From the NCBI GenBank assembly GCA_026391555.1, contig JAPLEB010000093.1:21674-85673 (forward strand): DNA of 64,000 nt, given 5' to 3'. Made by a program: the position numbers and the translations under genes. The notes under the pieces were generated by a model. It was not told the DNA's origin and searched no databases. It saw only the letters and a list, made by a program, of their open reading frames with translations. The DNA comes from Bacteroidia bacterium (lineage in GTDB: Bacteria > Bacteroidota > Bacteroidia > Bacteroidales > VadinHA17). Below, piece by piece: positions 1,428 through 64,000 of this stretch; the stretch's first letter is position 1, and every line of letters starts with the position of its first letter.

Positions 1428-2273
1428 CTATTGTAAAATTTCTGATGTATATCGATCTGCAACATCACTCTGATCTTTCGACAAGCCAGAAATAATTACG
1501 ATTATATTATCCTTCCATGCCAGAAAAATAGTTCCGTTATATCCGTCTTTTAACATATATCTGCCACTTCCCGCACCGACTGCATCCATCCCGGTTGCTG
1601 CAAGATAAGTTTCTATCGATTTCATTGCCTCCGCGGGGGAATTGTTTTCCATTATAAAGATGGAAAAGTTATCGCTCCCTGCTTCATAAATTGCTTTATA
1701 TGCTTTGTTCAGAAACTTATGTCCAAGAACACTTTCATTAATGTAAGTTTCTTCATTTATCTTTTTTCCAATTTCGGGGAACTGTGAAAGCATTGCAGGC
1801 ATTTCGGAATCTCCCCTAAGCATGCTGGCAACTTTAAGAGCCAGTGATTCAGCCGATTGCAATACTTTTTCACTAATTGAATAGGTCCTGATCTTGACAT
1901 AATAATTTTCTTTAAAGAAATTAATTGCACCATCAGCAATATATCCCTGAGCTCCAATATTCATGAACCTGAAGGAAGGAGAGCGTTCAGTTGAATATAT
2001 GCCGAAAGCCAGTGTTTTATCGCTGTGCCGGTATATCTCGAGCTTAATGACATTCTTACCCTTCTTATATTCTGCAACATGCAGATCAATGAACCCGTAG
2101 GCGAGATATGTATCAGCTGCCCCGTCAATAAAATCCCAGAGGTTATCAGGAACAAAGACGGGATAGTCGGTGGTCTTTTTAAAACCTGCAAGTTCCGGAA
2201 AGGTAAAGTCCTGAGCTAATGCTAATCCGGAAAACACAATCAGTACAAATCCGATAAAAATAAATTTTCTCAT
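1428..2273 (-). CDS. Secreted hypothetical protein, DUF6599-like
   Basis: Signal peptide; FPELAGFKKTTDYPVFVPDNLWDFIDGAADTYLAYGF pattern. Confidence 0.55.
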   Translation of the reverse strand: MRKFIFIGFVLIVFSGLALAQDFTFPELAGFKKTTDYPVFVPDNLWDFIDGAADTYLAYGFIDLHVAEYKKGKNVIKLEIYRHSDKTLAFGIYSTERSPSFRFMNIGAQGYIADGAINFFKENYYVKIRTYSISEKVLQSAESLALKVASMLRGDSEMPAMLSQFPEIGKKINEETYINESVLGHKFLNKAYKAIYEAGSDNFSIFIMENNSPAEAMKSIETYLAATGMDAVGAGSGRYMLKDGYNGTIFLAWKDNIIVIISGLSKDQSDVADRYTSEILQ

Positions 2274-2326
2274 TTCTGATAAATTAAATTAAATTAAGAA
2301 TCCCTAATGGATTCGTAAAAACTTTT

Positions 2327-3520
2327 TTAAGTCAGAAAATCTGCAGGAACATTTACCAACCGGGATATATCTGCTATTTTCTCTCTGATATTGAAATTTT
2401 TAGTACATTCTACTTTACAGATGTTACACCCATTACACGGATTATCATTCGTACCCAGCTCTCCAAGCAGAGAGTAAGCCATTGCCGGGTCTGAATAACC
2501 ATAAGCATACATATATGCTCTCATCAGATCAGGAACCGGAAGGTTCATAGGACAAGCCGGAATACATTTGCTGCATCCTGTGCAGTAGAGACCGGTTTCA
2601 GCACTTGCAATAATAATGTCATTCTTTTCCTCTTCTGTAATCGAAATGTCAGTAAGCAGCTTAACATTAAGATCGAGCTGATCAAAGTTAGTCATACCAG
2701 GTACTGTTGTATGAATATCCGTATTTGATAAAACCCATTTCAAAGCAGCCGTGGAATTAACCGGCCTGGTTTTTTCCTTGTCAAGGAATCCACCTGCCAA
2801 TGTCTTCATCGCGACAATACCTATTCCTGCTTCATTAGCTTTTTTAATCGCAGAATTTAATTCGTTGATATAGGCGTGTTTAAAATTGTAGGCCGTCAGT
2901 ATTACATCCCAGTTATCTGTTGCAACAGCAGCATTAATAACATCTGGTTCATTACGGTGTGTCGAGAACCCCATAAACCTTATTTTTCCATCTTTTTTTA
3001 ATTTCTTAACTGCATTAATAATTGGCTTATATTCAAGAAGTTCCGGATTATTAACAGCATGAACGTATAGAATGTCAACATAGTCCATCTTTAGTCTGGA
3101 AAGGCTGGTATTGAATTTCGTAAGAAAATCTTCAGCAGTAGTTTTGCTGGTAGGTTTACCCTCCTTGTCCAAACCCACAGCTCCTACTTTTGTAGCAATA
3201 AAAAATGAGTTTCTGGGGTAATCAATTAAAAGATTTCCAAGCATTGTTTCGTTATTGCCATTCTGGTACCCGTTAGCAGTGTCAAAAAATTTAATACCTT
3301 TTTCATAGGCAGCCTTGCAAAGGTTTGGATTATCAGCCTTCATTACGCCAAAACTGATTACAGGAACCTTCATTCCGGTTTTTCCCAAGGTTCTATAGAT
3401 TATATTTTCCGCCTGATCTGATGATACTGCCGATACTAATGAGGGTGAGAATGCAACGATTCCGGCAGCGCCTGTTATTCCTGTTCTGAGGAAACCTCTT
3501 CTGTTTATACTTTTCATCAT
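2327..3520 (-). CDS. Exported aldo/keto reductase with C-terminal 4Fe-4S ferredoxin-like domain
   Basis: Tat-like leader (NRRGFLRTGITGAAG), AKR barrel (GKTGMKVPVISFGVMK), C-terminal CTGCSKCIPACP and CNGCNICKVEC motifs. Confidence 0.85.
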   Translation of the reverse strand: MMKSINRRGFLRTGITGAAGIVAFSPSLVSAVSSDQAENIIYRTLGKTGMKVPVISFGVMKADNPNLCKAAYEKGIKFFDTANGYQNGNNETMLGNLLIDYPRNSFFIATKVGAVGLDKEGKPTSKTTAEDFLTKFNTSLSRLKMDYVDILYVHAVNNPELLEYKPIINAVKKLKKDGKIRFMGFSTHRNEPDVINAAVATDNWDVILTAYNFKHAYINELNSAIKKANEAGIGIVAMKTLAGGFLDKEKTRPVNSTAALKWVLSNTDIHTTVPGMTNFDQLDLNVKLLTDISITEEEKNDIIIASAETGLYCTGCSKCIPACPMNLPVPDLMRAYMYAYGYSDPAMAYSLLGELGTNDNPCNGCNICKVECTKNFNIREKIADISRLVNVPADFLT

Positions 3521-3556
3521 AATATAATTTTGATTTTAAAGGTATGATATGATCTA

Positions 3557-4309
3557 TTATTTTAAGTTTCTGATACGTACGGTAATATCGGTATCCTTTA
3601 AAAGTTTTACTATTTCATCCGTGTTAGTGTCTCCAAAATGGTAGGGGTATAAAATTTTAGGCTTAAATGCCCTTGCCGCATCAGCAACCATTTCAGGAGT
3701 CATCGTATATGGAAGGTTCATTGGAAGAAAAGCGACATCAATATTTTTCAGCGCTTTCATTTCAGGGGTGTTTTCAGTATCTCCTGCAATATAAAACCTT
3801 TTACCCCCGATAGTGAGAATATATCCGACCCCTGCTCCTTTCGGGTGAAAAGGCTGACCAGGTGCGCGTTCATTAACAATATTATAAGCGGGTACGGCTT
3901 CAATAATAATGTTATTGATTTCCTGCCTGTCGTCCGCCCTCATAGCCATAGCCCATGAAACTTTTGCAGTAGAGTTTTCATTGCTGAATAACAGGGTTCC
4001 CTGCTTCTTCAGGTTATTAATCAGGTTAACATCAAGATGATCACTATGCTCATGGGTAACCAGGATAATGTCGGCTTTTGGAAGAAAATCGTAACTTCCT
4101 GAACTCCGTACCGGGTCGATGTAAATAACAAAACCGTTCACTTTATACATGAGTGATCCATGTCCGAGGAAGTGCATTTCAACTGTTCCTGCAGAGGTAT
4201 TTATTTTGTCAAAAGCAGGAAGGTCCTGAGAATAAGCCGAAATGGTCATTGAAATAATTATTATGGTTAGAAAAAATTTTAAAGCTCTGTTTAAATAGTA
4301 GTTTGCCAT
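3557..4309 (-). CDS. Secreted metallo-beta-lactamase fold hydrolase (UlaG-like)
   Basis: THEHSDHLD motif, IAGDTENTPEM; likely start at internal Met (MANYYLNRALKFFL). Confidence 0.8.
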   Translation of the reverse strand: MANYYLNRALKFFLTIIIISMTISAYSQDLPAFDKINTSAGTVEMHFLGHGSLMYKVNGFVIYIDPVRSSGSYDFLPKADIILVTHEHSDHLDVNLINNLKKQGTLLFSNENSTAKVSWAMAMRADDRQEINNIIIEAVPAYNIVNERAPGQPFHPKGAGVGYILTIGGKRFYIAGDTENTPEMKALKNIDVAFLPMNLPYTMTPEMVADAARAFKPKILYPYHFGDTNTDEIVKLLKDTDITVRIRNLK

Positions 4310-4463
4310 AAAATGAAAATTAGAATCTACAATGTTCAAATTCAGTTGTAAAAATACGAATTTTATGTTTTAATCAAATTTAATCCGGTTACAATCATTA
4401 TATGTTGAATTTTTAATAACTTGCCTCCAGAATTTAGGTTATAGTGTTAATTAATTAACATTG

Positions 4464-7400
4464 ATGCGTTTAGGGAAAGATAAACAGGCTATTTTATTAG
4501 CAGTTTTTCTGCTTTTATCAGCATCAGCCGGCGGACAGGCAGGAAAAAGTTTCAAATACCAGTTTGATGGTAATTTGCAGAAGAGTGATGCCATTACCGA
4601 AAATCAATCTCTAATCATAAATTATTCAATATCAGAACTTAACGTTGAATGTGTTACAAATGATAATGGTTCTTTTTACCGAGTCTCAATCGCGGGCCAC
4701 ACTCCTACCGCCACTCCGGGTAAACCTGAGCTTCCGGTATTTAGCCGTTTGATCTCAATTCCTGATGGATCTGAATATAATGTGAAGATTTCTGAAGTCC
4801 GATCATCCAAAATCAATCCTTCGGGGGAAAAACTTGAAGGTGTTCTTTTCCCGGTACAGGAGGGTGAAACAAAGGAAGTTCAGCAAAGAAAACCTGATTT
4901 TAAAATTGACAAAACGGTGTACGCGGCAAGGGGATTAATCTCCTCTGACACAGTAAGAATTGAATCGTTAGGTATAGTAAGAAATAATAAACTGGCTAAC
5001 CTGTATGTTTTCCCGGTAAGATATAATCCACATTCGAACGTGCTCGAGGTTATTACTTCCATGAAGATTGAGATAACTTTTTCATATCCCGACAATATTG
5101 TGTCAAAATCTCTATTACCTGAATCGGCACTTTTTAATGAATCACTTGGTAAAGGAGTACTTAACTACAATCCCCGGGATGTAATTCCTGGTTACTCCGA
5201 CCAGCCCGTGAAGATGGTAATCATCACCGACTCTGCTTTCAGAAAGCAGCTTGAGCCATTTTTAAAATGGAAAACCCAGAAAGGTTTTAAACTTAAGGTC
5301 CTGTACAAAGGAGCCGGTCTGGCAGGTAATACCTATACTCAATTAAAGGATACTCTGACAAATATTTACAAAGCCTCATCCGAAACCGACCCTCCGCCTG
5401 AATATCTGCTGATCATCGGAGACGTGAACAGAGTGCCTTATTTAAATACCGGATATCCTTACTATAATATCACCGACATGTATTACGGTGAATTTGATGG
5501 TAATGGCGATTATATTCCTGAAATGTATATCGGAAGGCTTCCCGTTGCCGACACAACTGAATTAAAATCTGTGGTTAATAAAATAATTCAGTACGAGAAG
5601 TTTCAATTTGCCGATACTAATAAATTCTATTCACGGGCATTAGCTGCTGCAGGTAAAGATGCCTATTATGCAAATTACATGAACGGACAGGTGAAATATG
5701 CAATATCAAACTATCTGACAAAAATCAATAAAATAAATGAATATCACTTTTATAATCAATCAGCCAGCAATGACTCAATAAAAAAGCTGATTAATTTTGG
5801 AGTTTCATTCATAAATTACACGGGCCATGGCAGTTCTGACGGCTGGTTATACTCTAAAGATCCACCTTACTCTTATTATTTAAAGACTTTGGATGTAGGA
5901 GGGCTGGTTAATAAAAATATGTATCCATTTGTAATCAGTAATGCCTGCCAAACGGCCATGTTTAATATTGCTTCTTCATTCGGAAATAAAATGGTTCTTT
6001 CCGGAGAAAAGGGGGCAATTGGGTTTATTGGATGCTCAGCCAACTCTTACTGGGATGAGGATTATTACTGGGCCGTAGGACCCCGATCACCTTCTGCAGA
6101 TTCCACCTATCAGGGAACAGGGCTCGGGGCTTATGACCGGCTATTTCATACACACGGGGAACCTGCTTCAGACTGGTATTTCACCATGGGACAGGTTAAT
6201 TATGCAGGTAATCTTGCTGTGAGCGCAAGTACATCCTCATGGAAGAAGTATTATTGGGAGACCTATAACCTTATGGGAGATCCAAGTGTTATTCCCATCC
6301 TGGGGAAACCTGATACTTTCAACATCTCATTACCTGATACACTTCCAAATGGTATTAAATCTCTTTCGCTGAATATTGAACCGTTTGCATATTTGTCTGT
6401 ATCGCATTTTGATACTCTATGGGATGCTTCATTTGCAAGTCCTTCAGGATCAGTTACACTTGATATGCCCGGGTTATCTTATGATTCATGCATGATTGTA
6501 ATTACAGGCCAGAACAAATTACCTCTGATTAAGACAATATATTTTTCCGATGTCAATAAGGAATTCATTAATCTGACCTCCACCGGCATAAATGATAGTC
6601 AGGGAGATGGCAATGGCCAGGCTGACTTTGGAGAAACATTTTACCTGAACCTTAAAGTCAGTAATCTTGGTTTAACAGATGCCAGCGGCCTTTATGCAAA
6701 AATATCGTCATCCTCCGACTGGATAACAATTAACAACGATTCAGTATTAATTGGAAATCTTCCGGCCAAATCAGATACTGTTCTTTCAAATAACCTGGGT
6801 ATTGCTATTTCCGATAATGTCCCTGATAAAGGATTAGTTACGATTAAGCTGATGCTGAAAGATCAGAAATCAGAGAAACATTATACTATTGATATTTGTA
6901 TTCATGCATCCGAACTCCAGATACTGAATTGCATAATAGATGATAAGACATTAGGAAATGGCGACCAGATTGCCGATCCGGGAGAAATTTTTAACCTTGT
7001 TTTTAAGGTTCGGAACCAGGGAAGCAGTGATATATCAGGACAATTTACTATTGTCAGTCCCAATGAAAAAATCGAAATCTTAGACCTATATGGCAAATCA
7101 GGAATAATGAAATTTGGGGAGATTACTGATATTCCGATAAAAGTAAAATTACCAGAGACAATCTCATCCGGTAGTTTCATTTTAGTTTCGGCAACACTCA
7201 ATTGCAGTCCGTTCCTGATAAATAAGGACTTCTCTTTCAGGGTTGGCAGGATTAGAGAGAGTTTTGAATCATTATCATTTAATGTCTTCCCATGGATCAA
7301 TAACAGTAAAATACCATGGTCAATAGCCGGAACTAGTTCATATGACGGTAGTATTTCAGCCAGGTCGGGCGCTATCAATGATAATGGATCCACTTCATTA

Positions 7401-8261
7401 ATAATAAGGACCATTTATGCAACCGCCGATTCTGTTAAATTCTTTTACAAAGTTTCATCTGAAACTAACTATGATTTCCTTTCTTTCAGGCTTAATGGCA
7501 CCGAGGTTTTCAAAAAATCGGGAGAAACAGGATGGACAAAGAAAGCAATTCCTGTAACAGCCGGGCTAAATAAAATGGAATGGATTTACTATAAAGACGG
7601 CACCAAACTTGAGGGTTCAGATTGTGCATGGATCGACATGATTGATTTTGCAGGATCAGGTACTGTCAAATACATTCAAAAAGACATCCAGGTTGCAAGA
7701 ATAGTAACACCGGTTCAAAAGGACCAAAATGGACAAGGAACTGTAACGGTAAAAGTTATGAACATTGGTAAGGACACTCTAAATGGCTTCAATCTGGCCT
7801 ACGAGGTCAATGATCATTTACCCCCAGTAACACAATATTTCGAAAACCCGGTTATTCCTTACGGTGATTCGTGTACAGTTTCATTCAAGACAAAAACTGA
7901 TATGTCGAAATCAGGCATTTATAAAATCACTGCTTACGTTGTTGACAATAACGATGATTACATTTTTAATGACACATTACGAGTCAGTTTTGAGAACAAA
8001 AAAATCGATGAGATATTTGTATTTCCGAATCCATTTACAGATCAGTTTACAATACTTATCAATTCCCAGGCTGCTGATAAACTTCAGATATCCATTACCA
8101 ATATTTCAGGAGTTAAATTGTATAACGTTGAAAAAGAGATCATCAGCGGAAAGAATGCAATAATTATTTCTGATGTCAGATTATTACCTTCCCTTTATTA
8201 TCTAAATATCCGCGGAGCTACAGTCAATAAAACCATATTCGTTCTAAAAATAAATAAGTAG
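4464..8261 (+). CDS. Gingipain-type C25 peptidase with T9SS C-terminal sorting domain
   Basis: NYTGHGSSDGW (catalytic His) and FVISNACQTAMF (catalytic Cys) motifs; C-terminal VFPNPFTDQFTI...GVKLYNVE sorting domain; ORF track starts at TTG 4461, ATG at 4464. Confidence 0.88.
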   Translation: MRLGKDKQAILLAVFLLLSASAGGQAGKSFKYQFDGNLQKSDAITENQSLIINYSISELNVECVTNDNGSFYRVSIAGHTPTATPGKPELPVFSRLISIPDGSEYNVKISEVRSSKINPSGEKLEGVLFPVQEGETKEVQQRKPDFKIDKTVYAARGLISSDTVRIESLGIVRNNKLANLYVFPVRYNPHSNVLEVITSMKIEITFSYPDNIVSKSLLPESALFNESLGKGVLNYNPRDVIPGYSDQPVKMVIITDSAFRKQLEPFLKWKTQKGFKLKVLYKGAGLAGNTYTQLKDTLTNIYKASSETDPPPEYLLIIGDVNRVPYLNTGYPYYNITDMYYGEFDGNGDYIPEMYIGRLPVADTTELKSVVNKIIQYEKFQFADTNKFYSRALAAAGKDAYYANYMNGQVKYAISNYLTKINKINEYHFYNQSASNDSIKKLINFGVSFINYTGHGSSDGWLYSKDPPYSYYLKTLDVGGLVNKNMYPFVISNACQTAMFNIASSFGNKMVLSGEKGAIGFIGCSANSYWDEDYYWAVGPRSPSADSTYQGTGLGAYDRLFHTHGEPASDWYFTMGQVNYAGNLAVSASTSSWKKYYWETYNLMGDPSVIPILGKPDTFNISLPDTLPNGIKSLSLNIEPFAYLSVSHFDTLWDASFASPSGSVTLDMPGLSYDSCMIVITGQNKLPLIKTIYFSDVNKEFINLTSTGINDSQGDGNGQADFGETFYLNLKVSNLGLTDASGLYAKISSSSDWITINNDSVLIGNLPAKSDTVLSNNLGIAISDNVPDKGLVTIKLMLKDQKSEKHYTIDICIHASELQILNCIIDDKTLGNGDQIADPGEIFNLVFKVRNQGSSDISGQFTIVSPNEKIEILDLYGKSGIMKFGEITDIPIKVKLPETISSGSFILVSATLNCSPFLINKDFSFRVGRIRESFESLSFNVFPWINNSKIPWSIAGTSSYDGSISARSGAINDNGSTSLIIRTIYATADSVKFFYKVSSETNYDFLSFRLNGTEVFKKSGETGWTKKAIPVTAGLNKMEWIYYKDGTKLEGSDCAWIDMIDFAGSGTVKYIQKDIQVARIVTPVQKDQNGQGTVTVKVMNIGKDTLNGFNLAYEVNDHLPPVTQYFENPVIPYGDSCTVSFKTKTDMSKSGIYKITAYVVDNNDDYIFNDTLRVSFENKKIDEIFVFPNPFTDQFTILINSQAADKLQISITNISGVKLYNVEKEIISGKNAIIISDVRLLPSLYYLNIRGATVNKTIFVLKINK

Positions 8262-11593: not shown

Positions 11594-14500
11594 TTATTTC
11601 AAAACAACATCTGCGAAATCCATAAACCAGTTCCAGTCTTTCAATAGCATATTATGAACTCCGTCTCGTATATGATAAGCTACTTTGCCACTCATTACCT
11701 GTTTATTAAGAGGCGGTATAGCTTCCGGAATATCAGAGGCTGTTCCTAATAACTTAAAAACAGGTATCGCATTATAAAGCGACAGATATGATCCACGCGG
11801 ATCACCCCAGAGGTCGTCGCTTGCACAATCAACATAAAGAGCCCTTGGTGCAATCAGGGCTAAAAGCATATGCATATCGACAGGAAGAGCATCTTCATTA
11901 TTATTGTACTTTTTATAGTTAGAACAGAACCAGTGTGGAAATGATGTGTTGATCCTTCCAACCGTTTCTCCAAAGCGGCGCCTGGCTAAAGCAGCTCCTC
12001 CGCAACCTGATTCATTTGATACCACCATTGCAAAACGGGAATCCTCAGCCCCTGCCCATAACGCGGTTTTACCACCGCGTGAATGACCAACCACAGCGAC
12101 CTTATCACCGGCAATATCTTTATCAGTTACAAGATAATCCATACAACGGCTTGCACCCCAGGCCCATGCAGCAATGGTTCCCCATGCATCATCAGGGCGC
12201 GAATCTTTGTCAAGAAGTGAGTGTATCCCATTCTTAAAATCATCAAAATTATCAGGATCTACATCTGCATTGCAAAAAACTGCCATCCCGTATCCTCTTG
12301 CAATGGCCTCTTCTACTGGCCAGAACTCATTTTTTACCTTCCTGTATGGATCTATATTCGCCGGCCCACGGTTATCGATCAAAAGAAATACAGGAACAGG
12401 TTTCTTTGCATTATTTGGTGTAAAAAGTGTGAGATGGATATCCAGAGTTTTACTAATTGATGCGATTGTGATATCGACCAGCTTAAGTGTCGCAGCTCCA
12501 TCCAATGCATTATTGTCCAGATTTACTACCTTAAAACTTTTCTGATAAGGAGTTTCAGGTATCCTTCCATAAACATTTTCCCGGAAAAGTTCCAGTATCT
12601 CATTCCTGCGAACATCCGTCCACATCCGGGGTGTTGTGACTTTTTTTCCATCGGCAGTTGTCAGCGCATCCGGTAATGAATATGCAGGCACTTTTTCTTC
12701 ATAATAGTTAAACTCCGGTCTGTTTTTAGAGAGCTTTTCGACAGTTTGTACTGATGCACGCCAACCGTTGTCCGATTTTATTTTTGTAAAAGTAACTGTC
12801 TGTTCACCTTTAAGCGAAGGATCGAGAAACTCCAGAACTACCCGCGTTACCCCTTTTTGCCAATAACGTTTTAAAGAAGCATCAAAAACTTCGATCTGCT
12901 CAATTTTTGGCTTCACCACTTTTTGATTATAGGCCATATTCAGACTGAACCCATCACCATCAAATCTTAGTAAGCCTGGAGAAACCACTGTTACCTTGCA
13001 ATAAGTGATCAGGTTAGATGATGTGGGAGCCTCTCCCCTGCCGGATAACTGAAACTTGTCGTTAATAACAAAATTCTTCCCCCGGTTAAGGGTATAACTG
13101 CGAACCCAGCTTTTTACCAAAGCATCTTTGGTATAAGCACCGGCAATATCTGTTGAAAACGTGGCAGACTTCTCATTTGCAGTGAATGATGAATTCTTTG
13201 CTTTGAAACCGGCACCCTCCTTCTGATCATTTCCATTGATTACAGGAAGGTTATGATATCCCGACTGCATTGTCCATATCTCATAACGTTTGGAACTGAA
13301 AGTTTTAGCAGTATAACCTTCACGGCCCAAATCAATAAGACAAGGCTTTCCATCGTAGTACATCACACAAGAACCTATGTCGTTGTGATTGTGACTTTCA
13401 GCATTAAACCCACCTTTGGCACCAAAGAAGAAACCTGCAAAACTTCCTTCCTTATCGCGGGCTCCGGCAACCTCGGTATCAGGAAGCCAGAAATCGGCCA
13501 TAAGCGCCTCTTTGGCATCAGCTTTTATGATTTCAGGCAACAGAACCAGGTTTTTGATCTGTTCACATATCTTGCCTGAGAAGGCATTTTCGCCCCATTT
13601 ATTCAGATTTGCCAGGTATGCGCCAAACTGTTGCATCTGAAGATCATTAATTGCTTTCCCATAAAGATAAACTGATGCCGGACTTCCCCCTATTGTTGCG
13701 TCAGCATCGGCAAAATTTATAAAATATGGAGCGTGAATATTGACTTTATAGAAATATTTCCCGATATTCTGAACCAGAGGATTATCGTACACATCAAATT
13801 TTCCATTAGTTGCACTTTTAAGGACAGCAAGACTCTCGTACAACAATGCCCCGGCGACTCCCCAATAGGATGGACCTTCATCGCAACCGCCATCATCTGA
13901 ATAACCATTCAGAAATTTGTCAAGAGAGTTGATAGTCTTCTGAACTTCAGCCTGCTTTTTAACAGGATCATCCCCGAGCAGGAGAAAACAGTTCAGCATG
14001 TTATAATTGACCCATGGATTCCAGTTATTCGGACGTCCGCCTATAAAACCCATATAACCAAAATCAGACCGTTCAAAATAGGGCTTAACAGCTTTATTAA
14101 TGATCTCCTGCTTCAGTCGTTGAGATATTAAAGGATGTACCTTATCAAACTCATCTTTAAACAGATACCATGTCCAGGAAAGATCACTTGCTATTTCACC
14201 TACACCAAGATCAACAGTTGGTTCATTCACATCTGGTAATCCACGGGGAGCTTTCTGGAAATGGAGATGAGCTGACCATCCCCACCATGTCTGTTCGCTG
14301 TAATACCACACTGCATTTATGATCTGATCGATAAAACGACCTTTGCCCTCAATAAGCTCTCCGGTAACAAGTGAATTGAGAGCTCTGCCGGGTGCGGCAT
14401 AAGCGCCCTGGCGGCGATCGCCTGATCGTATAAACTCAAGATAATCAGTCGCCCTGACAACCGGCCAGTTATAATCGAGATAACCCTCAGCTCTTGAAAT

Positions 14501-14743
14501 ATACTCTTTCCTGAGATTTGAAGGGACGCTCTCCCAGAACTGACGGTTTTTATAATCAGGCAACTTATTCCATGAGTTATCGGTAATAAGAGATTTTGCA
14601 AGGTCGATCTCCCTTGCTTTATTGGCCAGGATATTCCTCTCTTTTGTCTGGACAGATGCTGTTAAAGGGTAAATTGATGATAAGACAAGCATGGCGCAAC
14701 AGCCCGAAAGAAAGAGCTTCAGATTATGGTTAAATTTTATCAT
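11594..14743 (-). CDS. Heparinase II/III-family protein fused to a CE15 glucuronoyl-esterase-like domain
   Basis: N-terminal part with GFNAESHNHNDIGS (heparinase II/III motif); C-terminal alpha/beta-hydrolase with VVGHSRGGKTALWAG nucleophile elbow and IRDGVHNMLLKDW His motif. Confidence 0.82.
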   Translation of the reverse strand: MIKFNHNLKLFLSGCCAMLVLSSIYPLTASVQTKERNILANKAREIDLAKSLITDNSWNKLPDYKNRQFWESVPSNLRKEYISRAEGYLDYNWPVVRATDYLEFIRSGDRRQGAYAAPGRALNSLVTGELIEGKGRFIDQIINAVWYYSEQTWWGWSAHLHFQKAPRGLPDVNEPTVDLGVGEIASDLSWTWYLFKDEFDKVHPLISQRLKQEIINKAVKPYFERSDFGYMGFIGGRPNNWNPWVNYNMLNCFLLLGDDPVKKQAEVQKTINSLDKFLNGYSDDGGCDEGPSYWGVAGALLYESLAVLKSATNGKFDVYDNPLVQNIGKYFYKVNIHAPYFINFADADATIGGSPASVYLYGKAINDLQMQQFGAYLANLNKWGENAFSGKICEQIKNLVLLPEIIKADAKEALMADFWLPDTEVAGARDKEGSFAGFFFGAKGGFNAESHNHNDIGSCVMYYDGKPCLIDLGREGYTAKTFSSKRYEIWTMQSGYHNLPVINGNDQKEGAGFKAKNSSFTANEKSATFSTDIAGAYTKDALVKSWVRSYTLNRGKNFVINDKFQLSGRGEAPTSSNLITYCKVTVVSPGLLRFDGDGFSLNMAYNQKVVKPKIEQIEVFDASLKRYWQKGVTRVVLEFLDPSLKGEQTVTFTKIKSDNGWRASVQTVEKLSKNRPEFNYYEEKVPAYSLPDALTTADGKKVTTPRMWTDVRRNEILELFRENVYGRIPETPYQKSFKVVNLDNNALDGAATLKLVDITIASISKTLDIHLTLFTPNNAKKPVPVFLLIDNRGPANIDPYRKVKNEFWPVEEAIARGYGMAVFCNADVDPDNFDDFKNGIHSLLDKDSRPDDAWGTIAAWAWGASRCMDYLVTDKDIAGDKVAVVGHSRGGKTALWAGAEDSRFAMVVSNESGCGGAALARRRFGETVGRINTSFPHWFCSNYKKYNNNEDALPVDMHMLLALIAPRALYVDCASDDLWGDPRGSYLSLYNAIPVFKLLGTASDIPEAIPPLNKQVMSGKVAYHIRDGVHNMLLKDWNWFMDFADVVLK

Positions 14744-14774
14744 CTCTGTTTTTATTATCAAAATATTAATAAAA

Positions 14775-22233: not shown

Positions 22234-22989
22234 CTATTTTATCCCTAACAGATCCATCACACCATTAATAAATGTCAGTGGATGAACCGGATTACCCGGG
22301 ACATAAAGATCAATATTATTCTCTTCAATAAATCTTCTGTCAAGAGCCGGACTTCCTTCAAAAATACCACCGCTGATAGCATCTGTCCCTGCAAGGATTA
22401 TAATTCTTGGTTCAGGAATTGATTCATAGCATATCTTTAATGCTTCTGACATATTTTCGCTCACCGGACCTGTAATAACTATTCCATCAGCATGGCGTGG
22501 TGAAGCAACAAACTCAATTCCGTAGCGGCCTGAGTCAAAATTCACATTGCCTGTAGCAGCAAGTTCCATTTCACAAGAATTATCTCCCCCGGCAGATACC
22601 TGGCGCAGCTTCAATGCACTTTTAAAAAGCCTTCTTATCTCTTTTCTTACCCTGTTTTCATCAAGTTGTACCGGAGTTTCAGAACCCGGTTTGATTATAA
22701 GTGCTTCCCTCACATTGGATGATATCCTGTAATCATTTGTGAACCTGATCTTTTCGGGGAGCAGGAACGAACATTCTTTACAGTAAACACATCTGCCCAT
22801 ATCTATAGATCTTGATTTACCATCAATGGCCATTACCGGGCAGACGGCAGAGACAGTTTTGATTTCATCTTTTGTTATATCACCTGAAATGACCGGCCTC
22901 CCTCTGAACAACGCTGAAACAGGCTGGGTACGAAGGTTTTTGACATATTGTCTGCCGTGACTCTTCAGAACTTTTATCTCTTTAAACAT
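22234..22989 (-). CDS. HyfI/NuoB-like small subunit fused to degenerate ferredoxin domain (Ehr-type complex)
   Basis: RYGIEFVASPRHADGIVITGPVS...PRIIILAGTDAISGGIF...VPGNPVHP; canonical Cys positions replaced by D, D and N. Confidence 0.85.
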   Translation of the reverse strand: MFKEIKVLKSHGRQYVKNLRTQPVSALFRGRPVISGDITKDEIKTVSAVCPVMAIDGKSRSIDMGRCVYCKECSFLLPEKIRFTNDYRISSNVREALIIKPGSETPVQLDENRVRKEIRRLFKSALKLRQVSAGGDNSCEMELAATGNVNFDSGRYGIEFVASPRHADGIVITGPVSENMSEALKICYESIPEPRIIILAGTDAISGGIFEGSPALDRRFIEENNIDLYVPGNPVHPLTFINGVMDLLGIK

Positions 22990-23012
22990 AGTAGTTCACT
23001 TACTGTATAAGA

Positions 23013-24533
23013 TTATAAATCGTTTCCGCAATACGACAGGTTAAAGCTCTTATTACACACCGGGAAATCCGATATTTCCTGATTGCGCACTGCCAAAGCT
23101 AAAGCCAACCAATTATGCATTGAAGGATCTTTGACTTTGTAATGTGCAATATTTCCATTATTATCAGTGATAGCGATGTGACAAATTTCACCTCTCCATC
23201 CTTCGACCATCGAGATTGCAAAGCTGTTTGGCTTTAACTTATATTCATAAACAGGCTTCTTGATGTCTTTAATTTTTTGTCGCCATATCTCAATAAGTTC
23301 ATGAATAATTTTCACCGATTCACGTGCTTCAAGATTACGCTCCATACCGCGTGCAAGAACATCGCCTGTCTCAAGAATTACCGGTCGAACCGGATAGTTT
23401 TTATAGTATTGAAAAGGATGTGTTTTTCGAATATCACGTAAAATCCCGCAGGTACGGGCAGCCATTCCAACGGCACCCAGGCTTAAAGCTTGTTGTCTGG
23501 TAAGTATCCCTATATCATCAAAACGGCCAAGAACACTTGGTAGGGAATAAATAAGATCAGTTACTTCAGAATATCGTCTATCTGTATCATCAAGTACTCT
23601 GAGCATTTCGTCCATAATATTATTACTCATGGGATAATTACTGCCTCCGGGGCGAACTAATCCCTTCCCAAAGCGATTTCCGCACCAAAATTGAGTAGTA
23701 TTTATTATTGTAGTTCTGAGCGCTTCACACACAACTTGTCCAAGCTGGTAAGCAACATCGCCGCATAAAGCAGCAGTGTCGCCAATGTGATTGGCAAGCC
23801 TTTCCATTTCCAAAGCGATGCACCTTTCGATCTGTAGCGCTTCGCTGACCTGAATACCAGCTAATGACTCAATAAGCTGCGAGTGAGCCAGTGCATGTCC
23901 AACTGAAGTATCTCCGGCAATGCTTTCTGAAAGAACACATCTTTGTAATGCATCGTTTTTTTCTATAAATAATTTTTCAATACCACGGTGCTGATACCCA
24001 AGTTGAATTTCGAGGTGTAAAACCTTTTCCCCGTTGCAGATAAACCTAAAGTGACCTGGTTCAATTATACCCGCATGTATCGGACCTACTCCCACCTCGT
24101 GCAACTCTTCGCTCTCAATCTCATAGAAAGGATAATTATCCATAATCTGTGACTTATCTGAACGTTCATGCGAATATCTAACCGGCTTTAACCATGGGTG
24201 CCCTTCGAATTTCACTCCAAAATTTTCATGAATCTCACGCTCAAAAATATGAAGCTGGGAGCAAACCGGAGTTAATGATTTCAATACAGGTTTATCCTTA
24301 TTAATCACGTGAGCAAACACTTTAATACTATTATTATTGTCATCAGCAATACAACAATAAAGTTTCAGTTTACCCGCTGATTCTACACCGTAATAGGCAA
24401 CGCAGTGTTTTACTTCATCTTTTAAAAAAGCCATAATCTGATCAAAAAAAATATCATATTTTAATATCGGTATTTCGTTAAGGTCAGTCGGTAATGAATT
24501 GTTTATTATTTCTATATATAGTTTTTGATCCAT
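23013..24533 (-). CDS. HyfG/NuoCD-like large subunit lacking NiFe-binding cysteines
   Basis: HEVGVGPIHAGIIEPGHFRF, LGYQHRGIEKL, ERLANHIGD; the CGIC motif position reads SIAGDTSVGHALAHS. Confidence 0.9.
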   Translation of the reverse strand: MDQKLYIEIINNSLPTDLNEIPILKYDIFFDQIMAFLKDEVKHCVAYYGVESAGKLKLYCCIADDNNNSIKVFAHVINKDKPVLKSLTPVCSQLHIFEREIHENFGVKFEGHPWLKPVRYSHERSDKSQIMDNYPFYEIESEELHEVGVGPIHAGIIEPGHFRFICNGEKVLHLEIQLGYQHRGIEKLFIEKNDALQRCVLSESIAGDTSVGHALAHSQLIESLAGIQVSEALQIERCIALEMERLANHIGDTAALCGDVAYQLGQVVCEALRTTIINTTQFWCGNRFGKGLVRPGGSNYPMSNNIMDEMLRVLDDTDRRYSEVTDLIYSLPSVLGRFDDIGILTRQQALSLGAVGMAARTCGILRDIRKTHPFQYYKNYPVRPVILETGDVLARGMERNLEARESVKIIHELIEIWRQKIKDIKKPVYEYKLKPNSFAISMVEGWRGEICHIAITDNNGNIAHYKVKDPSMHNWLALALAVRNQEISDFPVCNKSFNLSYCGNDL

Positions 24534-24541
24534 GATAATTA

Positions 24542-25969
24542 CTATTTAAGAAAAATGGAAATGCTCTGGTTAATAAGATCAACCAAAAAGGGCGGTTGAT
24601 AAAAGCACATAATAATCACTACTCCGAGAAGCACAAATTGGCTAATGGTTTCAGCAGGGTTAACTTTATCAGGTGGTCTCAGACTATCTTCATTTCTGGG
24701 GTCGGAAAAGATAATGTGCATGATCCTGGTGCTCATAGCATAGATTACAAAGCAAAGTAGCAAAATTGTAATAATCAGGATGAACCATTGATCATTGAAA
24801 ACCAACCCTTTAAATATCATAAACTCCATAATAAACAATCCCGACGGCGGAATGGCAAGAATGCAAATCATTCCTATAATAAGTACCAGGGCGCCAGCCG
24901 GGTAAAGTTTCATATATCTGCCGCTTTCATCTAATTTGAACGTATGGAGGACCCGTGACAACTGCCCCATTTGATAAAAAAGACTTGATTTTGTTAATGA
25001 ATGTAACACTAACAGAAGCAGCGCAGCATAATAACCAACACCCCCGACACCAACAGCTATGGCTACTAAGCCCATGTTTTCAAGACTTGAATATGCAAGC
25101 ATACGCTTAAGATGTTTTGCTTTAAGCATATATCCTGCGGCAATTAACAAAGACAATATTCCTGCAAGGATAAGAACATGATTCATGAAAGGCAAAATAG
25201 GTGATGAAGAAAACAAAGTATAAACACGAAAAATAGCCAGAAAACCGACATTCATCAATGTTGTGGAAATTAAAGCGCTTATTGGAGGCGGCGCTACAGA
25301 ATGTGCATCAATGGTAACAGTATGCATGGGAAAAAGTCCCATCTTCGTGCTGAAGCCAACCAGAACAAAAATAAATGCAATTTTCAGATACATGGGGTTG
25401 GCCTGATTAATAATATTGGCTAAAGATGTAAAAGAAAGATTAGCAGCATCTTCCCGGCCATAAATAAATCCTAAAAACAAAATACCCAGGTAAGCCAGAG
25501 CTATCCCTGTTGAACAGATAAAAACATATTTCCATGTTGCTTCAAGCGCCATTTCGGTGCGGTCGTGATATATCAGGGCTGCAACAGCCAATGAGGTAGC
25601 TTCGACAAAAATCCATAAAACAGTCATTCCATTTGCCAGGTATGCACCCGACATAAAAGTCATTAAAGCAATCAGGGCAGCATGATAAATATTATATTTT
25701 TTTACATCGTCACCGGCTGCATAAATAAATCCATGATAAACAGTTGGAATAGCTAAAAACGATAAAACTGAAAGTAATAACACCCCGGCGCTGTTATAAG
25801 TGAAATAGCTCAATTCGGTTTTATTTAAGTTAGTCCAGCAATAGAGAGTAAAAGCAATGTGCATCAATGCGAAACCGAGGGTTATAATTTTAGTAATAGT
25901 TTTACTTTTAAGTAAGACTATCGAGATACACATAAGTGATGAAATGATAAAAAAGCATAAAAGCGTCAT
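24542..25969 (-). CDS. HyfF / NuoN-L-like antiporter-type membrane subunit
   Basis: Many TM helices; VEATSLAV Glu and STKMGLFPMHTVTIDAHSVAPPPISAL Lys-containing motif. Confidence 0.88.
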   Translation of the reverse strand: MTLLCFFIISSLMCISIVLLKSKTITKIITLGFALMHIAFTLYCWTNLNKTELSYFTYNSAGVLLLSVLSFLAIPTVYHGFIYAAGDDVKKYNIYHAALIALMTFMSGAYLANGMTVLWIFVEATSLAVAALIYHDRTEMALEATWKYVFICSTGIALAYLGILFLGFIYGREDAANLSFTSLANIINQANPMYLKIAFIFVLVGFSTKMGLFPMHTVTIDAHSVAPPPISALISTTLMNVGFLAIFRVYTLFSSSPILPFMNHVLILAGILSLLIAAGYMLKAKHLKRMLAYSSLENMGLVAIAVGVGGVGYYAALLLLVLHSLTKSSLFYQMGQLSRVLHTFKLDESGRYMKLYPAGALVLIIGMICILAIPPSGLFIMEFMIFKGLVFNDQWFILIITILLLCFVIYAMSTRIMHIIFSDPRNEDSLRPPDKVNPAETISQFVLLGVVIIMCFYQPPFLVDLINQSISIFLK

Positions 25970-25972
25970 CTT

Positions 25973-26587
25973 TTAATCTTTTAGCGTTGTTAATTCGTTA
26001 GTATGCGGTTTGAGTCGTAATCCAAAAAAACCAAGAATCAGAACTCCAGCAAAAATGTCAAGTAATATCCCAATATTGATCAACATAGGCATTTTATTTC
26101 CAACAGCAAGTGAAAACATAAAAATCGCGTTTTCAATAATTAAAAAACCTATGAGATGTGAGATTATCAGTCTATGGGTTACTATCAGCAACAATCCGGT
26201 AAATAAAGTAAAGAGAGCTATTGCCATATATATTGTATTGATAAAAGGATTAATAAGAGAATTAGCCAATACAACACTTATCAATAATGCAAAAATTGAT
26301 AAAATCAGCAAATAAAATCCGGGCATTGCCTGATGGTGCACTTTAGATACGCCGGAACGATTAATGATCCTGACCAGAAGATATGGAATCAATAAAGCCT
26401 TAAAAACCAAAGACTCTGAGGCAATAAATATCAGGTTAACAGTACTGACTTCCTTTAGCTCAATTAAAGCTATACCACAAAGTAATAATCCCTGCAATCC
26501 AATCAGCCTGGAATAAATTATTAATCGCTCAGCAGAAGCAAAATATACCAGGGTTATAGCAAACAAAACTATCAGATAATTTACCAT
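25973..26587 (-). CDS. HyfE / NuoK-like membrane subunit
   Basis: Small multi-TM protein in the conserved operon position; IGFLIIENAIFMF. Confidence 0.8.
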   Translation of the reverse strand: MVNYLIVLFAITLVYFASAERLIIYSRLIGLQGLLLCGIALIELKEVSTVNLIFIASESLVFKALLIPYLLVRIINRSGVSKVHHQAMPGFYLLILSIFALLISVVLANSLINPFINTIYMAIALFTLFTGLLLIVTHRLIISHLIGFLIIENAIFMFSLAVGNKMPMLINIGILLDIFAGVLILGFFGLRLKPHTNELTTLKD

Positions 26588-26596
26588 ATCTCGTTA

Positions 26597-27508
26597 CTAT
26601 ATCAATTTATTAGTCAATATTAAAATTACCACAAAAGCTATCCATGCAATTGCAGAGATGGTAAGAATGAACTTGGGATTTAAATTCATTTTATTCCGTG
26701 CCCTGAACGATTCTATCAGGCCGATGATAATTGCAAATACCACCTGAACTGCCAGAAATAAACCAGTTTGCAAAAATATGTTCCATCCGGCAGGCACTAT
26801 GACATTGTACATTAATGAACCATAAATTGCAAATTTCAGGTACGACCCTAAATGAATTATTGCTTTATCAAAACCGCTGTTATCCAATATCATCACCTCA
26901 TGTATCATTGTGAGTTCGAGATGTGTTTTGGGGTCATCGACAGGGAGCCTGCTGTTTTCGATCATGGCTATCTGGACAAATAAATAAAATCCTATAATAC
27001 TGTATATCAACACATAATGATCTCCTGTAAGAAAGAAGTGGCTAAAGATATCCGAGAATGAAGTAAAACCGGTAAACATGGCAAAAGTGGCCAGCAAAAT
27101 AAAAAATGCAGGTTCCACAAGCATTGAGAAAAATGCTTCGCGATTGGCTCCCATCCCCCCGAAACTGCTGCCGGTATCAAGAGCAGCAAGAATAGTAAAA
27201 AACTTTCCGAAAGCAAGCAGGTAAGAGAAGAAAATAAAATCTCCTTCAAACGAAATAAGAGCCCTCTGATTTGCAAATGGTATTACAAGTGAAGCACACA
27301 AAGTACCTGACAATGCAACAACAGGCGCTATCTGAAATATTATTCCTGAGGTCTTGCTGAAAACACTTCCTTTCCTCACCAGCACTCCAATATCTTTTAT
27401 AGGCTGAAGTATTCCGGGACCTTTGCGTCCTGAAGTAATGCTTTTTGTTCGTAATATTATGCCGGGAAAAAAGAAAGCTGCAATTAAAATCAAAACAAAT
27501 CCTATCAT
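26597..27508 (-). CDS. HyfC / NuoH-like membrane subunit
   Basis: SSFGGMGANREAFFSMLVEPAFF and RLPVDDPKTHLELTMIHEVMILDNSG motifs. Confidence 0.9.
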   Translation of the reverse strand: MIGFVLILIAAFFFPGIILRTKSITSGRKGPGILQPIKDIGVLVRKGSVFSKTSGIIFQIAPVVALSGTLCASLVIPFANQRALISFEGDFIFFSYLLAFGKFFTILAALDTGSSFGGMGANREAFFSMLVEPAFFILLATFAMFTGFTSFSDIFSHFFLTGDHYVLIYSIIGFYLFVQIAMIENSRLPVDDPKTHLELTMIHEVMILDNSGFDKAIIHLGSYLKFAIYGSLMYNVIVPAGWNIFLQTGLFLAVQVVFAIIIGLIESFRARNKMNLNPKFILTISAIAWIAFVVILILTNKLI

Positions 27509-27510
27509 AC

Positions 27511-29502
27511 TCAGATAAGGTTAAAATAGGTTAACAAAAAGACAAGCAGCATAAATACAAACGCATATAGAATGTAATGCTGTATTTGTCCGGTCTGCAT
27601 TACTGCAATTTTTTTAAGAAGAGATGAAAACCAATCTATCGGTTTGTCAATAAGAAGCTTTTTGAAAATATCATCACTATGCGACACAAAGGTTCTTTTG
27701 CCGGGAAATATTTCATCTTCCCGGATGTCAACCATTATTTTTTTTGTCTGGAGCAATGGTTTTACAAGATGATTGTAATTATAGGCATATGATGTTGCAG
27801 TATATTGTTGTTTAAAGGTGCCTGCAGTATAGCCGCAACCCCATGTTGGGCCGACATCAATTTGTTTGGTCTTGAGATGGAAATGCCTGTAAACGAGCAA
27901 TATAATAATCGTAATAACAAAAATTCCACTCAGAATGCTTATTTGCGTGAGGTTATTGACAGAAGCTGCTGCTGCTATATTTGTATCGGGTATATTGAAA
28001 GCCGATGATACTATATTAAAAACAGGTTTCACAAAGAAGACTGAGGCTAATCCTATCAGCATTATAAAAGCTATGGTTATGAATTGAGGGAAAATCATCA
28101 CCCGGCTTACTTCTTTAGCCATTGATGCTTTTTCTGAACGTGGTTCTCCAAGGAAGACTATTCCAAACGCTTTAGTAAAACAGAAAATTGCCAGTCCCCC
28201 GATTAGGGCAAGTCCGACAATGCTTGACAGTATTACAATAGATTGATATAAGTTGGCTGCTGACAGGCTTTTAAACATGCCAACGTAAATAAGATATTCT
28301 GAAATAAAACCGTTGAAGGGAGGCAGACCGCAGATAGCTAAAGAACCTATTAAAAAGAGAATTGCTGTATATGGCATTTTCTTCATTAAACCGCCAAGAT
28401 GTTCAATGTTTCGTGTATGTGTGGCCGTGTACACCGAGCCTGCATTAAAAAAGAGAAGAGATTTGAATAAAGAATGATTCAACACATGTAGTAAGCCCCC
28501 GCTGAAACCGAGCAGGCTTAATGCGATATTTTTTGTAGCAAGGCCTATCACCCCCAATCCAATTCCGATACCTATAATACCAATATTCTCAATGCTATGG
28601 TATGCCAGCAATCGCTTAAGATCATGCTGAACGATAGCCATCATTACGCCAAGCACACCTGATATTAGAGAAACTGACAGAATGATGAGGCCAATCAAAA
28701 GCAGATCATTCTGAACCGACATAAGAACCCTTAAAATACCATAAATGCCCATTTTTATCATTACCCCCGACATTACACCCGATACATGCGATGGAGCTGC
28801 AGGGTGAGCTTCGGGGAGCCATGTATGCAAGGGAATAAAACCGGCCTTTATTCCAAACCCGATAAAAAACAGGATAAAAAGCAGAAAATTAGAATGGCTT
28901 GAGAAATATAGCCTGAGAGCATCAAAGCTCATTTGCCCGGTTGCTTTATCAACAATTAAAAAGCTGATTAAGATAAAAAACATGCCTACATGCATCTGTA
29001 TCAGGTAACTGATACCTGTTTTCATTATAGTGCGGTCTTCTGCATCAAAAATCACCAGGAGGAACGAAGACAGAGCCATTAATTCCCAGACAATTAGAAA
29101 CGACAAGCCATCGCGGATCATAACTACCATTATCATCGAAAGGTAGAGCCACAGGTACGAGAAGTAATGTATTGAAAAATGTAACGCGTTTTTGCTTTGA
29201 TAATACGACTGGAGGTATCCCCTGGCATAAAGGAACCCTATAAAAACAGTTATATTAACCACGATGATAAAGAATGCAGAAAGCTTGTCAATTATAAAGA
29301 CAAGACCGTTTTGCAGGAAAGGTAATTTTAGCTGTATTTCAAGTATTTGTTTATCATTTGAAACCAATTCAAAGCACCACATTGAGCTTAATATGATCCC
29401 ACTTGTAAGCAAAAACAGTGTATAGAAATACTTTAGAGATTTGGGAATAAAAAAAACAGCGAATGACAGAAGTAAGATAATAAAAAATAATAATGTATTC
29501 AT
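27511..29502 (-). CDS. HyfB / NuoL-like antiporter-type membrane subunit
   Basis: LIVWELMALSSFLL, GIKAGFIPLHTWLPEAHPAAPSHVSGVMSGVMIKMGIYG. Confidence 0.92.
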   Translation of the reverse strand: MNTLLFFIILLLSFAVFFIPKSLKYFYTLFLLTSGIILSSMWCFELVSNDKQILEIQLKLPFLQNGLVFIIDKLSAFFIIVVNITVFIGFLYARGYLQSYYQSKNALHFSIHYFSYLWLYLSMIMVVMIRDGLSFLIVWELMALSSFLLVIFDAEDRTIMKTGISYLIQMHVGMFFILISFLIVDKATGQMSFDALRLYFSSHSNFLLFILFFIGFGIKAGFIPLHTWLPEAHPAAPSHVSGVMSGVMIKMGIYGILRVLMSVQNDLLLIGLIILSVSLISGVLGVMMAIVQHDLKRLLAYHSIENIGIIGIGIGLGVIGLATKNIALSLLGFSGGLLHVLNHSLFKSLLFFNAGSVYTATHTRNIEHLGGLMKKMPYTAILFLIGSLAICGLPPFNGFISEYLIYVGMFKSLSAANLYQSIVILSSIVGLALIGGLAIFCFTKAFGIVFLGEPRSEKASMAKEVSRVMIFPQFITIAFIMLIGLASVFFVKPVFNIVSSAFNIPDTNIAAAASVNNLTQISILSGIFVITIIILLVYRHFHLKTKQIDVGPTWGCGYTAGTFKQQYTATSYAYNYNHLVKPLLQTKKIMVDIREDEIFPGKRTFVSHSDDIFKKLLIDKPIDWFSSLLKKIAVMQTGQIQHYILYAFVFMLLVFLLTYFNLI

Positions 29503-63629: not shown

Positions 63630-63820
63630 AAAATTATGAGAATCATGAATCATAAACAGAAATTCAGTGATTGTATCTTTCATGATGGAAAAGCAGATTA
63701 TATAGTCCAAACTCAAGGTAGAGATAAGCAGTTGATCAACATTTGGTTGAAGAGATACAAAGATTCATCGCTACCTCTTGGGATGACATGGCGAATTATC
63801 AGAAAAGAGGAAGAGATCAG

Positions 63821-64000
63821 GAGATTCCTCGCTGGCGGTAAGGAAATGGAATAACAAAATGATCAAAGAGGGTACGGTAAAGGGAAATGGAGATTCCTCG
63901 CCGGCGGTAAGGAAATGGAATAACAAAATGATCAAAGAGGGTACGGTAAAGGGAAATGGAGATTCCTCGCCGGCGGTAAGGAAATGGAATAACAAAATGA
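63821..64000. repeat. 69-bp tandem repeat array, running off the window end
   Basis: gagattcctcg(c/t).ggcggtaaggaaatggaataacaaaatgatcaaagagggtacggtaaagggaaatg starts at 63821, 63890 and 63959. Confidence 0.95.

Follow-up and report, generated by a model that had tools for sequence, protein, structure and literature searches.

The operon and its products

The present analysis concerns a stretch of 64,000 nucleotides from a Bacteroidia bacterium of the order Bacteroidales (positions 21,674 to 85,673 of the forward strand of contig JAPLEB010000093.1, assembly GCA_026391555.1), which in its whole length is referred to as the window, and focuses on an operon in it for a complex of the Ehr type, related to the group 4 nickel-iron (NiFe) hydrogenases. 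The operon consists of six open reading frames (ORFs) on the - strand (22234-29502), with intergenic gaps of 2-23 nt. Its first gene (27511..29502) encodes a HyfB/NuoL-like antiporter subunit of 663 aa (B), which was matched by the Pfam family Proton_antipo_M at 2.1e-52 and by the NCBIfam model of hydrogenase 4 subunit B at 1.1e-164. It is followed by the genes for a HyfC/NuoH-like subunit of 303 aa (C; 26597..27508; Pfam NADHdh, 6.3e-29), a HyfE-like small membrane subunit of 204 aa (E; 25973..26587), which was matched by NCBIfam (hydrogenase 4 membrane subunit, 1.4e-11) and not by Pfam, and a second antiporter subunit, HyfF/NuoN-M-like, of 475 aa (F; 24542..25969; Pfam Proton_antipo_M, 3.1e-42). 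The last two genes encode a large subunit of 506 aa (L; 23013..24533), which is a NuoC+NuoD/HyfG-like fusion without NiFe ligands (Pfam Complex1_30kDa and 49kDa), and a small subunit of 251 aa (S; 22234..22989), in which a ferredoxin domain precedes a HyfI/NuoB domain (Pfam Oxidored_q6, 1.8e-18). The ORFs and the Pfam and NCBIfam matches thus bear out the original prediction, made from the sequence of the window, of six packed genes with HyfB-, HyfC-, HyfE-, HyfF-, HyfG- and HyfI-like products. Homologues of L and S stand together with HyfB-, HyfC-, HyfE- and HyfF-like membrane subunits in one operon, as is characteristic of Ehr, and L has neither of the NiFe-binding CxxC motifs, L1 and L2, of the group 4 NiFe hydrogenases. 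Of 65 Bacteroidota loci, 57 have the full order B-C-E-F-L-S, the remainder being mostly interrupted by contig ends.

The alignment of L placed A206 and T209 at the two Cys positions of the first CxxC, within the former L1 motif SIAGDTSVGH (23895..23924, - strand), and indicated that the former C-terminal motif, NKSFNLSYCGNDL (23016..23054, - strand), has no DPCxxC and is not followed by a maturation tail, in agreement with the earlier claim that both the L1 CGxC and DPCxxC are missing. The fold is nevertheless kept: the closest solved structure by sequence search was the formate hydrogenlyase subunit HycE (7z0s_E, 4.5e-37), and an AlphaFold2 model of L (pLDDT 85.7) was superimposed on it with a TM score of 0.87. 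Around and beyond the former NiFe site, about 20 polar residues of the pocket (E222, R237, E244, R245, R287, R337, D367, R369, D391, R395, E444, R447, S471, W475, D489, N494, K495, S496, Y501 and D505) were conserved at 0.93-1.00 in all four sets compared, N2-bearing and N2-less, where N2 denotes the proximal [4Fe-4S] cluster of the small subunit. N494, K495, S496, Y501 and D505, near the C-terminus, were invariant in all Ehr examined, and D208 had a conservation of 0.77 in classical Ehr, against 1.00 in the sets from Bacteroidota and Patescibacteria. An Ehr-like L that still has Cys at L1 (of the RICGAC or RICAAC type) together with an ELCYxCxD C-terminus was observed at 11 of the loci surveyed, which are mostly from Bacillota, with some from Acidobacteriota and Planctomycetota (L073, L083, L086, L091, L092, L096, L112, L117, L121, L122 and L125); this type may represent a transitional form between hydrogenase and Ehr.

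Replacement of the proximal cluster ligands

The N2 ligand positions in S were assigned residue by residue by aligning it with MbhJ, HycG and PSST of complex I, and residue counts were determined in 50 window-type loci. The first ligand is replaced by D136 (22582..22584, - strand; D in 48 and E in 2 of the 50), at a position that is Cys in 15/15 N2-bearing sister loci, the third by D203 (22381..22383, - strand; D in 49, A in 1) and the fourth by N233 (22291..22293, - strand; N in 50/50). The second, C139 (22573..22575, - strand), is the sole N2 Cys remaining and is drifting (C in 37, T in 4, A in 4, N in 3, S in 1 and G in 1), so that the new residues of the D/C/D/N set are more conserved than the orphan Cys. 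Therefore, the earlier reading that three of four N2-type ligands are gone from S was supported by the alignment. Because identical substitutions recur in dozens of separate genomes, a sequencing fault or chance can be ruled out. The fold of S is kept as well: MbhJ was the closest solved structure by sequence search (6cfw_J, 3.5e-22), and the AlphaFold2 model (pLDDT 83.5) gave a target-normalised TM score of 0.84 to it.

The complex is nonetheless still Fe-S-bearing. The N-terminal part of S (residues ~29-95; 22705..22905, - strand) is a ferredoxin-like domain, of which residues 58-100 were matched by the NuoI model TIGR01971, and it has a full [4Fe-4S] ligand set consisting of a CP motif (C50) and a CxxCxxC motif (C67, C70 and C73). 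These four Cys were kept in 50/50 window-type loci, and the second ligand set of a two-cluster ferredoxin is lost from the domain. Thus, the original prediction, in which the loss of the proximal ligands left no obvious route for electrons, was right about the N2 ligands but had overlooked a complete ferredoxin-type site.

A four-Cys N2 cluster that has moved elsewhere in the fold was also considered, and alignment and conservation speak against such a relocation. The near-invariant Cys elsewhere in L of the window-type loci, C44, C166 and C257, belong to different secondary-structure elements and form no CxxC pattern, and C139 is not conserved; a moved cluster is thus unlikely.

Distribution of the variant among Ehr complexes

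The loss of the cluster, which had been noted in a single genome, is real but is not specific to that genome: it spans a clade of Bacteroidota as well as Patescibacteria. Among 60 close relatives, 24 carried a window-type S of >=55% identity along almost its full length; in the order, it was detected at E <= 1e-25 in 93 of the 393 genomes sampled. Matches to S in the wider phylum (17/396 genomes) were mostly N2-bearing, and 15 loci of other Bacteroidota (L168-L182) constitute a sister Ehr with the same genes and gene order in which the four positions are C/C/C/C; in L168, for example, S is N2-bearing and 56% identical to that of the window. A scan of named genomes yielded 80 Ehr loci. In classical Ehr, including those of Nitrospira moscoviensis, a Geobacter, Rokubacteria, Acidobacteria, archaea and others, the NiFe cysteines are missing as a rule and the four N2 Cys were present in 59 of 60 loci, and in the tree of L the subunit encoded in the window groups with the Nitrospira and Geobacter Ehr, apart from hydrogenases and complex I (L047, L048 and L075b). 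Therefore, the Ehr-likeness that had been proposed for the complex was confirmed, with the correction that classical Ehr retains N2 and that the window form is a derived Ehr variant. The loss of N2 is considered to be secondary because classical Ehr and the sister Bacteroidota Ehr of the same gene order keep the four cysteines.

Two further N2-less groups were found, one consisting of Patescibacteria and a few metagenome-assembled genomes (MAGs) assigned to Calditrichaeota, Thermoleophilia and, in one case, Bacteroidota (L043), and the other of Moranbacteria, Uhrbacteria and one further MAG. In the Patescibacteria and related sets, the N2 Cys are replaced by T/D/S, D/G and D/N, and a search for a ferredoxin motif in all core subunits of the non-window N2-less (Patescibacteria-type) loci found none. 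What replaces the Cys across the independent losses is mostly an acidic, amide or hydroxyl residue. The approximately unbiased (AU) test rejected a single ancestral loss of N2: forcing all N2-less rows into one clade resulted in a delta lnL of 311.7 and a p-AU of 2.5e-37, indicating two or more separate losses of the proximal cluster. The loss is an ancestral trait that a large clade of Bacteroidota shares, and it arose separately in Patescibacteria and others. Patescibacteria-type Ehr was also observed in MAGs labelled Thermoleophilia and Calditrichaeota (L056 and L120), which may reflect lateral transfer or mis-binning.

Ehr has been described as lacking NiFe ligands and as being of unknown function (PMC6349859, PMC10284858, PMC7894505), and the Ehr of the candidate phyla radiation (CPR) has been noted to lack the metal-binding cysteines of L (PMC7304191). 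No description of N2 loss in Ehr was found in the literature searched, including the passages of these papers that were covered, although early papers on Ehr in subscription journals were outside the scope of this search and may contain a prior mention. As far as could be checked, the Ehr variant without the proximal cluster is real, widespread, conserved and undescribed.

Conservation of the membrane arm

The residues of the membrane subunits that had been quoted as a sign of retained ion pumping are present and invariant in the relatives, as had been claimed. In B, E140, K219, K250, K347 and E402 were conserved at 100% in 42 relatives; in C, E132, E184, D191, E198, H203 and E204 were so in 44 relatives, and in F, E123, K209, H323 and K327 were so in 47 relatives. 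K63 and E152 of E were likewise conserved at 100%. The ion-path and coupling-loop residues of all four subunits, which were at 100% in the window set, were at or near 100% in the other N2-less sets and in the N2-bearing sets. Thus, the pocket and the membrane arm are the same with or without N2, and the simplest inference, although not a proof, is that the job of the Ehr pocket would be independent of electrons delivered through N2. The dN/dS values, determined against three relatives, were 0.07-0.18 for all six genes, indicating purifying selection.

Two variations in the membrane subunits were observed. At L035, which is of the same genus as the window, a second complete B-C-E-F module without L and S (1577-6582, - strand) lies divergently beside the locus's own Ehr operon, and it may be an ion transporter of Ehr descent that works on its own. 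A tandem pair of HyfB-like subunits was present in the Ehr operons of L032, L040, L176, L178, L185, L195-L197, L199, L200 and L205, and this pair could provide an additional ion channel per complex.

Neighbouring genes

A survey of the neighbours of window-type operons for a conserved partner found none beyond the genus and no redox partner; the commonest neighbours, such as a gamma-glutamyltransferase-like gene, represent same-genus synteny only. Among the relatives, genes of the F1 ATP synthase lie beside 6 of the 12 non-window N2-less (Patescibacteria-type) loci: the beta and/or epsilon genes are upstream on the same strand at L050, L058, L094 and L111 (both were identified by Pfam at L111), the neighbour at L128 is that for epsilon, and the ATP synthase genes at L052 are on the opposite strand. 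A gene combining helix-turn-helix and PTS_EIIA domains precedes the operon in 12 of 15 N2-bearing Bacteroidota loci. In 7 such loci (L168, L169, L171, L173, L174, L175 and L181), a SulP anion transporter gene adjoins the Ehr operon or lies within it, and this Ehr-linked SulP is the only strong SulP in six of these genomes and one of two in the seventh. A SulP gene is likewise found next to Ehr at loci of Nitrospirota, Planctomycetota and Acidobacteriota, and Kdp genes adjoin L120 and L168. The conserved neighbours, where present, are genes for F1 ATP synthase or SulP and not for dehydrogenases. Taken as a whole, the surroundings speak for ion and anion traffic instead of a dehydrogenase partner, although this evidence comes from relatives.

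Relation to known complexes

The window complex has the subunits of classical Ehr (Geobacter, Nitrospira and others), has likewise lost the NiFe cysteines, has identical pocket residues and shares the EGWRGE and NKSFNLSY(x)GxDL signatures, but differs in its D/C/D/N set from the four N2 Cys of the classical form. CPR Ehr is N2-less too; however, it is of separate origin, has the gene order S-B-C-E-F-L and no ferredoxin domain, and is often located beside an ATP synthase operon. The closest solved structures belong to formate hydrogenlyase (Hyd-3), Hyd-4 and Mbh, namely HycE (7z0s_E) for L and MbhJ (6cfw_J) and HycG (7z0s_G) for S, whereas the window complex, unlike the group 4 NiFe hydrogenases, has neither the NiFe site nor the proximal cluster. 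Compared with respiratory complex I, it has counterparts of NuoB, NuoC/D, NuoH, NuoL/M/N and NuoK together with the coupling residues, but it lacks N2 and a counterpart of the quinone-site Tyr, the RMDY of the genome's own NuoD being aligned with SIAG, and its operon contains no NADH module. Mrp antiporters and DAB provide examples of complex I-type subunits that operate without redox chemistry, and DAB2 is a solved precedent in which a NuoL-like subunit is coupled to CO2 hydration (PMC13144422). The window complex differs from both in that the NuoB/C/D/H-like arm is retained. Moreover, its operon has no MrpB/E/F/G, only B-, C-, E- and F-type membrane subunits with L and S, and no DabA beta-carbonic-anhydrase domain was found among its six proteins, the rest of the genome not being searched for it.

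Possible function and alternatives

Taken together, these findings are best accommodated by an assembled, membrane-bound Ehr-type complex that would still move ions, in which the electron wire to the pocket of L would be cut and a conserved acidic site (D136/D203/N233) would stand in place of the proximal cluster; we assign this reading a probability of about 0.5. Ions would move through the two antiporter-like subunits and the NuoH-like subunit, and the complex would most likely work like Mrp or DAB, as an ion exchanger independent of redox or as an ion-driven machine, the former redox arm serving as a binding or regulatory domain. The arm might gate ion exchange in the manner of Mrp, or ion flow might be linked, as in DAB, to an event in the pocket that is not a redox reaction. 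The surviving [4Fe-4S] site of the ferredoxin domain, which is missing altogether in the Patescibacteria form, could have a structural role or sense the redox state in the window lineage. A broader proposal, which we put forward more tentatively, is that of a machine of the complex I superfamily without any electron transfer, driven purely by ions or ligands, in which the wire has given way to an acidic site in Bacteroidales and all Fe-S ligands are gone in Patescibacteria, where the operon is often beside that of the ATP synthase.

Several points weigh against the proposed ion-moving complex with a cut wire. A fully redox-free view is challenged most by the retention of the ferredoxin-domain site in all 50 window-type loci, which is odd if electrons are not involved, and the acidic ligands could hold another metal or cluster. 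The extra module of L035 may borrow L and S from the adjoining operon. In addition, the context evidence is drawn from relatives, the window lineage itself having no conserved neighbour beyond the genus, the trees are quick searches with long branches, and no assay of any Ehr was found in the literature.

It may be that the complex is still a redox enzyme that takes up electrons at the cluster of the ferredoxin domain and passes them to an acceptor with N2 bypassed, whether by slow tunnelling, through another cofactor on D136/D203/N233, or along a different path out of the ferredoxin domain. The retained C50, C67, C70 and C73 would be explained by such a route, the CP and CxxCxxC set presumably corresponds to the N6b-type site of complex I, which is adjacent to N2, and the D/D/N set could bind a metal ion. 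However, N2 has been replaced and not moved, given that C44, C166 and C257 of L form no CxxC, and cluster motifs are entirely missing from the Patescibacteria form; besides, the gap from the ferredoxin cluster to the pocket without N2, which we take from complex I distances to be ~20 Å, is presumably too far for fast tunnelling. A redox function is thus regarded as unlikely. Somewhat less probable still is a DAB-like machine for inorganic carbon or anions, whose pocket would bind or convert CO2/bicarbonate or a related anion and whose membrane arm would couple this to an ion gradient. The status of the Ehr-linked SulP as the only strong SulP in six sister genomes (and one of two in the seventh), its recurrence beside Ehr in three other phyla and the DAB2 precedent of non-redox coupling agree with this idea, but SulP may transport sulfate rather than bicarbonate, neither DabA nor a carbonic anhydrase was found in the operon, and the single SulP of the window genome is on another contig and not beside the operon.

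The missing catalytic and cluster ligands would also be expected of an ordinary Ehr that is decaying after loss of its function. This pseudogenisation is rejected because of the dN/dS of 0.07-0.18 and the near-invariant replacements in 50 loci, and it is further refuted by the intact ORFs in tens of genomes and the gene order kept in 57/65 loci, leaving it a very small probability. Similarly improbable is the supply of canonical S and L for these membrane subunits by another gene set. The genome does contain two further NuoB-family genes, on contigs C78 and C119, but the former is part of complex I, and the latter sits in a complete set of genes for an Mbh/Mrp-type NiFe hydrogenase, in which CGIC and DPCYCC motifs, Mrp subunits and a gene resembling a maturation protease are present. 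Each of the two complexes has its own operon with its own membrane subunits, so that both are self-contained and no other source of S and L was found for the window complex.

How complex I turns redox energy into the movement of ions is still a central question, and N2-less relatives that keep all ion-path and coupling residues provide a natural test of whether electron transfer is needed. If N2-less Ehr transports ions, the membrane arm and the pocket can be driven by something besides redox; if it does not, a conserved complex must perform chemistry that has so far not been proposed. Furthermore, as the trait is common in the order (93 of the 393 genomes), annotations of these genes as hydrogenase or NADH dehydrogenase in metabolic reconstructions are likely to be wrong.

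Other features of the window

Outside the operon, two ORFs of equal length (533 aa) were compared and found to be unrelated. A secreted C25-family cysteine peptidase of 1266 aa with a type IX secretion sorting tail is encoded at 4461-8261 (+ strand), and a 1055-aa protein that combines a heparinase II/III-like region with a domain resembling glucuronyl esterases at 11594-14761 (- strand). The gene at 52774-54306 (- strand) encodes an unusual pairing, in which the N-terminal region of a NapC/NirT-type cytochrome c is fused to a formylglycine-generating-enzyme (FGE-sulfatase) domain. At 63820-64000, a tandem repeat with a unit of 69 bp is present in 2.6 copies that are 99% identical, and it is ended by the edge of the window.

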